64,000 nucleotides of DNA from contig BLLK01000055.1 of assembly GCA_021927905.1 (NCBI GenBank), forward strand, positions 124,001 through 188,000. Direction: 5' to 3'. Below the pieces are notes generated by a model. The model did not search any database and was not told the DNA's origin. It saw only the letters and a program-made list of their open reading frames with translations. The position numbers and the translations under genes are program-made. The stretch is from Chaetoceros tenuissimus (lineage: Eukaryota > Bacillariophyta > Thalassiosirophyceae > Chaetocerotales > Chaetocerotaceae). This document shows, one piece after another, positions 23,256 through 25,333 of this stretch (the first letter of the stretch is position 1; every line of letters starts with the position of its first letter).

Positions 23256-24313
23256 ATGAAGACCACAGCTATTCTTCTTTCTTTGCTAGCAGCAACATCA
23301 GCAGCAACCTTTCCACAGGCACCAGCCTTCACTCATACCCGTTCTTTGAACTCGCTCCTCTCCATCAGAGGAGGAATGCAACTCTTTGTAAAGACACTCA
23401 CTGGTAAAACTGTTTCCATTGAAGTCGAAGAAGGAGAGTCTATCGAAGATGTCAAAGCCAAGATTGCAGAGAAGGAAGGAATTCCTAAAGAACAACAGAG
23501 ATTGATTTTCGGTGGACAGCAGTTGCAAGATGCAAAGACTCTTCAGGATTATGACGTGGGCGACGATAGTACTTTGCATTTAGTATTGAGATTGGTGAGT
23601 AAAAGGAATTGTGTCTAAATATAGAAGTGAGAGGAATGGAGAGTGAAGCAATCCATGAGTACTATAGAAGCGAATGTAATGCGGCCTGCCGCACATACCT
23701 TGTACTTTTATCGTTCTTTTGCTGCAGGATCTATGGTTTTGCTCCTTCCTTCCTCGTTCGTTCTACATGACTCTACTTTTTCACTTTTTCAACAAAACCC
23801 TAACTTACCCTTTAGCGTGGTGGAATGGAATTTTCAAATATTCCTAAAACCATCCTCTATTTCATTGAATAGCGTGGAGGTTTGTCTTTCAAACGAATTC
23901 TAAACAAAGTCACTGGCAAAGAAGCATTTGAGGTAGATGAATCATTTGTTATGGAACAAATTGGAGATCAAATTGATGATGAAGAAAGAGAACTAATCAA
24001 TAAATTTGTAGAGCAAAGTCAAGAGGAGCAACTGCAGACAAAGTTGGAGGCGACAGAGAAGGATACGGCAGTACAGGGAGCCTTTTACCGAATTTGTAAT
24101 GTTCCAAAGAAGGAGTGTGATGATAGTCCTTTGGGGGATATTGAACATCCAGAACGTATTACAAGTAGGAAGAGGAGTGTTTTTGCACATGAAGGACAAA
24201 TGATTCAAACAGATGGAACTGGAAAGAATACGAAATTGAGCAAGGTGTACAAGAGAGGAGATAACAGGGGTGCTCTATTGGGTGCTTTGAAAAGAATGAA
24301 GTTGAATATCTAA
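23256..24313 (+). CDS. Signal-peptide-bearing ubiquitin with C-terminal extension (periplastid/SELMA type)
   Basis: Exon 1 (23256-23594) encodes a signal peptide ([16 protein letters not shown]), a short transit-like linker containing ATFPQAPAF, then SIRGG directly before Met1 of a ubiquitin. The exon stops after residue 73 (...LHLVLRL) at a GTGAGT donor. The missing Arg-Gly-Gly is supplied by either of two downstream acceptors in the same frame. Acceptor 23815 gives RGG plus a 15-residue tail and a stop. Acceptor 23872 gives RGG plus a 144-residue charged tail, for 259 aa in total (23256-23594 and 23873-24313). Ubiquitin lysines 6, 11, 27, 29 and 33 are kept; K48 is Gln and K63 is Asp. In algae with secondary red plastids, a ubiquitin with plastid-type presequence works in SELMA, the ERAD-derived system that moves preproteins across the second outermost plastid membrane; that role is inferred. 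The tail has no recognised domain. Confidence 0.85.
23816..23872 (+). other. Alternative exon start: second in-frame acceptor, each restoring RGG
   Basis: Two AG acceptors 57 bp apart (23814-23815 and 23871-23872) are each followed by an in-frame Arg-Gly-Gly (CGTGGTGGA and CGTGGAGGT). The first has a branch-like CTAAC and pyrimidine tract (ending ACCCTTTAG). The second has CTAAA and CTCTATTTCATTGAATAG. Using the first adds [15 protein letters not shown] after RGG, and the frame then stops at a TAG that is itself part of the second acceptor. Confidence 0.7.
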
Positions 24314-24571: not shown

Positions 24572-25163
24572 TTATCTTGCGTACACTCCATTAATACAAT
24601 CTGTGATGAAGGTGTAGAAAAACCAAACTACTACTGAAGCCCAAGCACCCGACAAAGCTAATTGCTTTGGACTAGTGTTCGCATTGGCATAATCGTATTT
24701 TGGTTTTCCTTTCTTTTCTTGCAACTTTTGGTATGTCCAATCCTTTTTTGAATGAAATGCGGTTAATAATAGATATTTCTAATATGAGTTTGGTGAACTA
24801 TTGACTAACCTGAGCATTTTCCAAGTATGCATCCATATTTCCTTGAGCTTCTTTACGATCGCAACCTTCAGATGCCATATATTTCAACACAGCCTGATCG
24901 TACATGTCTGGCGTAATGATTCGCTGTAAGAAAGGCTTTGGACCTGCTCGGATCAATGAACCAACCGGTCCATATGATGATCCCTCTTCTTCTTCAGGCT
25001 TAGTTGCATACCATCTCTGCTCAGTTTTATCAAATCGAGGTGCCATAGACAAAGCTGTGGGAGAAAAGGGGATGGAACTCTTTTCTGATGATGTGAACGC
25101 AAATGCATTTTCGATGCAAACTGCAGCTACGAACGCTAATAAAGTCCAACTAGAAAAATTCAT
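24572..25163 (-). CDS. Plastid-targeted small membrane protein, two exons
   Basis: Exons 24810-25163 and 24572-24742 (67-bp GT-AG intron, phase 0) give 174 aa. The N-terminus is a signal peptide whose predicted cleavage site, ENAFA then FTSS, carries Phe at +1, the diatom hallmark for import across all four plastid membranes into the stroma; a Ser-rich transit part follows. The mature part begins near APRFDKTEQRWYATKPEE and ends with one membrane helix (GAWASVVVWFFYTFITD). The second exon is short but clearly coding (DWTYQKLQEKKGKPKYDYAN). Probably a thylakoid or inner envelope protein; I do not recognise the family. A TGACGTCA element lies about 170 bp upstream. Confidence 0.78.
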
Positions 25164-25333
25164 TGTTCTTTTCTATTGGTACTAGCTATGACTAGGAAAT
25201 TTCGATATAATTGTATGAGGTAAAAATAATACTCATAGACACACTGATCAGATGATAAGAGGAAAGGTAAGGTACGTAATACGAAAAGAGATGGGAAATT
25301 GAAGAAGAATTTTCATATCTTGACAATTCTGTA

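Follow-up and report, generated by a model that had tools for sequence, protein, structure and literature searches.

Two in-frame splice acceptors that would each rebuild the Arg-Gly-Gly end of a probable periplastid ubiquitin in the diatom Chaetoceros tenuissimus

We analyzed a ubiquitin gene in a 64,000-nucleotide stretch of the Chaetoceros tenuissimus genome (the window; G+C 39%). Two TAG acceptors lie 57 nt apart and in frame, and Arg-Gly-Gly (RGG) is rebuilt by either, as a first-pass annotation of this DNA had noticed. The best explanation, to which we give a probability of roughly 45%, is that the gene encodes a SELMA ubiquitin, that both acceptors are used, and that the same ubiquitin would thus be made with or without a C-terminal tail.

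The reading frame starts at the ATG at 23256. Exon 1 (23256-23594, plus strand), read directly from the sequence, codes for a leader and for ubiquitin residues 1-73; it ends in ...LVLRL before a donor at 23595, just where the first-pass annotation had placed its end. The features are as follows:

23256..23375, plus strand: leader of 40 residues, with RGG immediately before the ubiquitin Met (read from the sequence)
23376..23594, plus strand: exon 1 part of ubiquitin, residues 1-73 (PF00240, E 9.5e-28 on the joined precursor)
23595..23600, plus strand: splice donor GTGAGT, among the common donors of ab initio introns
23791..23847, plus strand: upstream unit of a proposed 57-bp tandem duplication, 31/57 identical to the downstream unit
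23800..23804, plus strand: branch-site-like CTAAC, with its A 12 nt from where the short intron ends
23813..23815, plus strand: acceptor 1 (TAG), scoring 4.72 (24th percentile among 80 ab initio introns)
23816..23872, plus strand: short-form exon 2 with RGG, a 15-residue tail and the stop TAG; the exon itself would extend further downstream
23848..23904, plus strand: downstream unit of the proposed 57-bp tandem duplication, 31/57 identical to the upstream unit
23870..23872, plus strand: acceptor 2 (TAG), also the short-form stop codon, score 5.85, 36th percentile
23873..24313, plus strand: long-form exon 2 with RGG, a conserved 143-residue tail and the stop TAA (121 relatives at E <= 10)

Acceptor 1 is followed by CGT GGT GGA, which reads RGG. 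Acceptor 2 is followed by CGT GGA GGT TTG and opens a frame of RGG plus 143 residues that stops at the TAA at 24311-24313; the tail had earlier been counted as 144 residues, one too many. The short form agrees with its first description, with a 15-residue tail and a stop codon that is the TAG of the second acceptor. The short precursor would have 131 aa and the long precursor 259 aa, and the intron to acceptor 2 measures 278 nt. Because two AGs are able to close the same intron, they form by sequence a candidate alternative 3' splice site pair. The leader of a SELMA ubiquitin is expected to be bipartite; read by eye, the 40-residue leader here has a hydrophobic stretch near its N-terminal start.

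We compared the ubiquitin domain, matched by PF00240 in the joined precursor (E 9.5e-28), with a ubiquitin encoded elsewhere in the same genome (L001, which resembles ubiquitin-L40) and found 27 changes, including K48Q and K63D. The SELMA periplastid ubiquitin is known as PUBL in Toxoplasma and has a homologue in Phaeodactylum tricornutum. Passages of a review (PMC5756292) describe the SELMA periplastid ubiquitin as having lost K63, and K63 is absent here with L001 as the reference. The Toxoplasma protein PUBL, as described in parts of PMC5487736, begins with a leader, carries RGG ahead of its ubiquitin domain and requires its C-terminal diglycine. The gene in the window resembles SELMA ubiquitin and PUBL in its N-terminal leader, the RGG just before ubiquitin, the divergent ubiquitin, the lost K63 and the C-terminal diglycine, which splicing at either acceptor would rebuild. 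It differs from Toxoplasma PUBL, whose ubiquitin domain is placed at the C terminus in those parts of PMC5487736, by a conserved 143-residue tail after ubiquitin and by a second acceptor, the use of which would remove that tail. The leader, K48Q, K63D and a conserved family of relatives together indicate that the gene product is probably the ubiquitin of periplastid (SELMA) plastid protein import, and they bear out the earlier naming of the gene as a plastid-type ubiquitin.

No second copy of the gene was found in its own genome (41,027,912 bases in 68 contigs), searched by DNA and by tail. Ubiquitin-like stretches lie inside larger reading frames at other loci of this genome (L004, L005, L006, L007 and L008), each with a comparable lysine-rich run (GGGKK...) after it; they may be diverged ubiquitin copies that make up a dispersed family.

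We searched for relatives with long-form residues 110-259 as the query, and 121 proteins matched at E <= 10, 120 of them listed. Among the 120 relatives listed, 95 have LVLRLRGG with 128-171 tail residues after it; the motif is present once in 85 of these 95 and twice in the other 10. The relatives named include Chaetoceros neogracile, C. dichaeta (by taxid), Cyclostephanos, Stephanodiscus, Thalassiosira, Cyclotella, Skeletonema and Mediolabrus; seven tail relatives among the matches listed come from the mmetsp source, where the record names term them transcripts. Leaders are present in the aligned set of relatives too, with RGG before ubiquitin in most. By this comparison the long form is a conserved precursor, and acceptor 2 is almost certainly used because it rebuilds the precursor form kept in the relatives.

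The remaining 25 listed relatives, which have no LVLRLRGG, consist of two with a ubiquitin domain (P0203 and P0237) and 23 ubiquitin-less frames. In nine ubiquitin-less frames, the residue preceding RGG is Q (seven frames) or K (two frames), which fits prokaryote-style calls on genomic DNA that continue into exon 2 from the last intron bases (CAG or AAG). The intron directly before RGG thus appears to be ancient, with acceptor 2 in the window as its continuation. Some other features of single relatives were seen. P0159, P0163, P0217, P0219 and P0223 have a tandem double ubiquitin before the same tail. P0237 (Stephanocyclus meneghinianus by record name) reads LVLRLRALGKG, with the diglycine missing, where P0215 reads LVLRLRGGIKSLLDRALGNG, as if P0237 had been annotated from an acceptor 27 nt further on. 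One tail relative, P0182, is labelled Alexandrium tamarense, a dinoflagellate.

The tail has 12 invariant columns over 97 relatives, and no Pfam family matched it above the cut-off. A profile built on 20 of the 120 relatives listed found 0 matches at E <= 1 among solved structures. The AlphaFold2 model of the tail, which drew on 97 of these 120, has a mean pLDDT of 59.4 and a pTM of 0.26, values too poor for a fold search, and there is no confident prediction of the tail fold. Ubiquitin-ribosomal protein fusions comprise ubiquitin-L40 and ubiquitin-S27a. Like them, the long form is a ubiquitin precursor with a C-terminal partner past the diglycine; unlike them, it bears a leader, and its tail is without a Pfam family above the cut-off. 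We considered membership in this group and rejected it, as neither L40, S27a nor any other ribosomal family was found in the tail above the cut-off; the weak L29 match in the relative P0126 (E 0.22) falls below it.

Can acceptor 1 work as well? We scored both acceptors with a model derived from 80 introns predicted ab initio in 264 kb, with thresholds relaxed after stricter settings kept none. Both scores are ordinary, that of acceptor 2 being slightly higher (5.85 versus 4.72 for acceptor 1), and 22% of YAG sites score as high as acceptor 1 and 12% as high as acceptor 2. The AGs at 23624 (6.07) and 23727 (7.64), at which RGG is impossible, score above both acceptors; the acceptor model is therefore weak and decides nothing between the two. 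The A of CTAAC lies 12 nt upstream of the point where the short intron ends, inside the 10-25 nt range that is commonest in the intron set, and the 88 nt upstream of acceptor 1 are free of AG. Acceptor 2 has only a CTAAA at 25 nt, and acceptor 1 lies 57 nt before it; its pyrimidine share is 0.64 versus 0.59 for acceptor 1. RNA structure across the acceptors was nowhere above that of shuffles (z 0.37). Judged by its signals, acceptor 1 is capable of functioning.

In the main competing account, splicing uses acceptor 2 alone, and the upstream TAG-CGT-GGT-GGA, left over from a duplication or arisen by chance, stays silent in the 278-nt intron. We regard this as a serious contender, if short of an even chance. 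The slightly higher score of acceptor 2 speaks for it; the good branch site of acceptor 1 and the AG-free 88 nt that precede acceptor 1 speak against it. Two further lines of evidence bear on this rival: the origin of the twin site and its distribution among relatives.

We compared the region with itself at different shifts. At shift 57, 31 of 57 positions match, and at 119 other shifts at most 28 do. Shift 57 was best at four of the five lengths tried and tied at the fifth (length 30), its lead being a single match at each of lengths 20, 40 and 50. Much of the match comes from an 11-nt core; outside the core 21 of 46 positions are identical (p about 0.03 under two nulls). The two copies of TAG-CGT-GGN-GGN have two differences, both at third positions. 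As the core copies differ at third positions only, they hint at selection on the upstream RGG codons, and this retention of RGG between worn flanks argues against the use of acceptor 2 alone.

We also asked how often chance would place such a site. A YAG followed by R-G-G codons occurs in the window, on both strands, at the two acceptors and at one other site. Base composition predicts about 7e-4 second YAG+RGG sites in 250 nt and gives a chance of 8e-5 for TAGCGTGGNGG. A blunter control is weaker: matches of 10/12 or better that are anchored on an AG occur in the 250 nt upstream of 258 of 12,807 YAG sites (2.0%) and in 2 of the 80 ab initio introns. With low composition odds and this weaker control, chance is an unlikely, though not overwhelmingly unlikely, source of a second RGG-bearing acceptor. 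Chance as the full account is disfavoured by the self-match and by the composition odds, but less strongly in view of the 2.0% of YAG sites with comparable upstream matches, a figure that also counts for the use of acceptor 2 alone. The twin site is most likely a worn tandem duplication of about 57 bp. The small tandem event proposed in the first-pass annotation thus survives as the best account (31/57), but what it produced is an alternative 3' splice site and not an alternative exon.

An upstream in-frame RGG is present in none of four informative relatives, those in which 20 or more codons can be read ahead of RGG (P0144, P0145, P0146 and P0168). In P0126, a closer relative, only 17 codons are readable before RGG, too few to tell. 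Since 0/4 relatives have it, the duplication is probably lineage-specific, and the short form is therefore unsupported by conservation, a point in favor of acceptor 2 alone. DNA of the relatives was not found in viral_contigs or genome_contigs, and the 20-nt stretch at the upstream acceptor has no exact match in viral_contigs. The short form, if made, would have been added in this lineage, and we put its use at about even odds.

Taken together, these results suggest how a SELMA ubiquitin with two working acceptors could have arisen and how it might act. The conserved precursor has the order leader-ubiquitin-RGG-tail. A tandem duplication of ∼57 bp around the acceptor would have placed a further RGG-rebuilding acceptor upstream in this lineage, and splicing at this acceptor 1 would give a short precursor that stops at the TAG of the old acceptor. 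The shared leader would bring both precursors to the periplastid compartment, where a deubiquitinase would cut after RGG and leave an identical 76-residue ubiquitin from each; the conserved tail would be released from the long precursor only, and the choice of acceptor would set the amount of tail per ubiquitin. PF00443, searched for deubiquitinases, has 31 matches in the C. tenuissimus genome. Such processing is not to be assumed because the RGG preceding ubiquitin in Toxoplasma PUBL was not seen to be cut, and cleavage there was unneeded, according to passages of PMC5487736. A stronger version of this scheme holds that the duplicated acceptor carrying RGG acts as a splice switch, which varies the ratio of periplastid ubiquitin to tail in a regulated manner while ubiquitin itself is kept; we consider this version unlikely.

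Use of acceptor 1 could have other meanings. It may be low-level splicing noise, harmless since ubiquitin would still be made; the ordinary scores of both acceptors and a short product that would still terminate in RGG are consistent with this, but nothing distinguishes noise from regulated use, and we find this account improbable. Alternatively, splicing at acceptor 1 could be followed by read-through of the TAG, and the precursor would then contain RGG twice. As the 57-nt segment keeps the frame, translation past the TAG would resume in that of the tail, but read-through adds a step for which there is no need, and we give it very little credence.

Among four candidates, no protein bearing this leader matched at E <= 10; this search says little on the short form because the leaders of relatives also failed to appear. 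The main text of a 2025 C. tenuissimus transcriptome paper contains none of the terms ubiquitin, SELMA, splic-, isoform or CTEN210. In a limited search, no title concerned a tail-bearing or twin-acceptor periplastid ubiquitin of diatoms, and prior publication is possible.

Alternative 3' splice sites form a general category, and the gene shares with it one intron with two in-frame acceptors. Unlike in the usual case, indispensable codons (RGG) are present in both copies here, and either choice of acceptor would therefore leave ubiquitin whole. If both acceptors are used, ubiquitin would have been uncoupled from its fused tail through duplication of its three final codons along with a splice site, a simple way for an obligatory fusion to become adjustable. 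In any case, the conserved tail is a concrete puzzle of diatom plastid import.

Downstream of the ubiquitin gene, a convergent neighbour on the minus strand (24572-25172) looks like a gene for a plastid protein. Its frame at 24798-25172 (minus strand) encodes a leader with NAFAF, and the frame at 24572-24778 (minus strand), which has a hydrophobic stretch, is perhaps the second of two exons.
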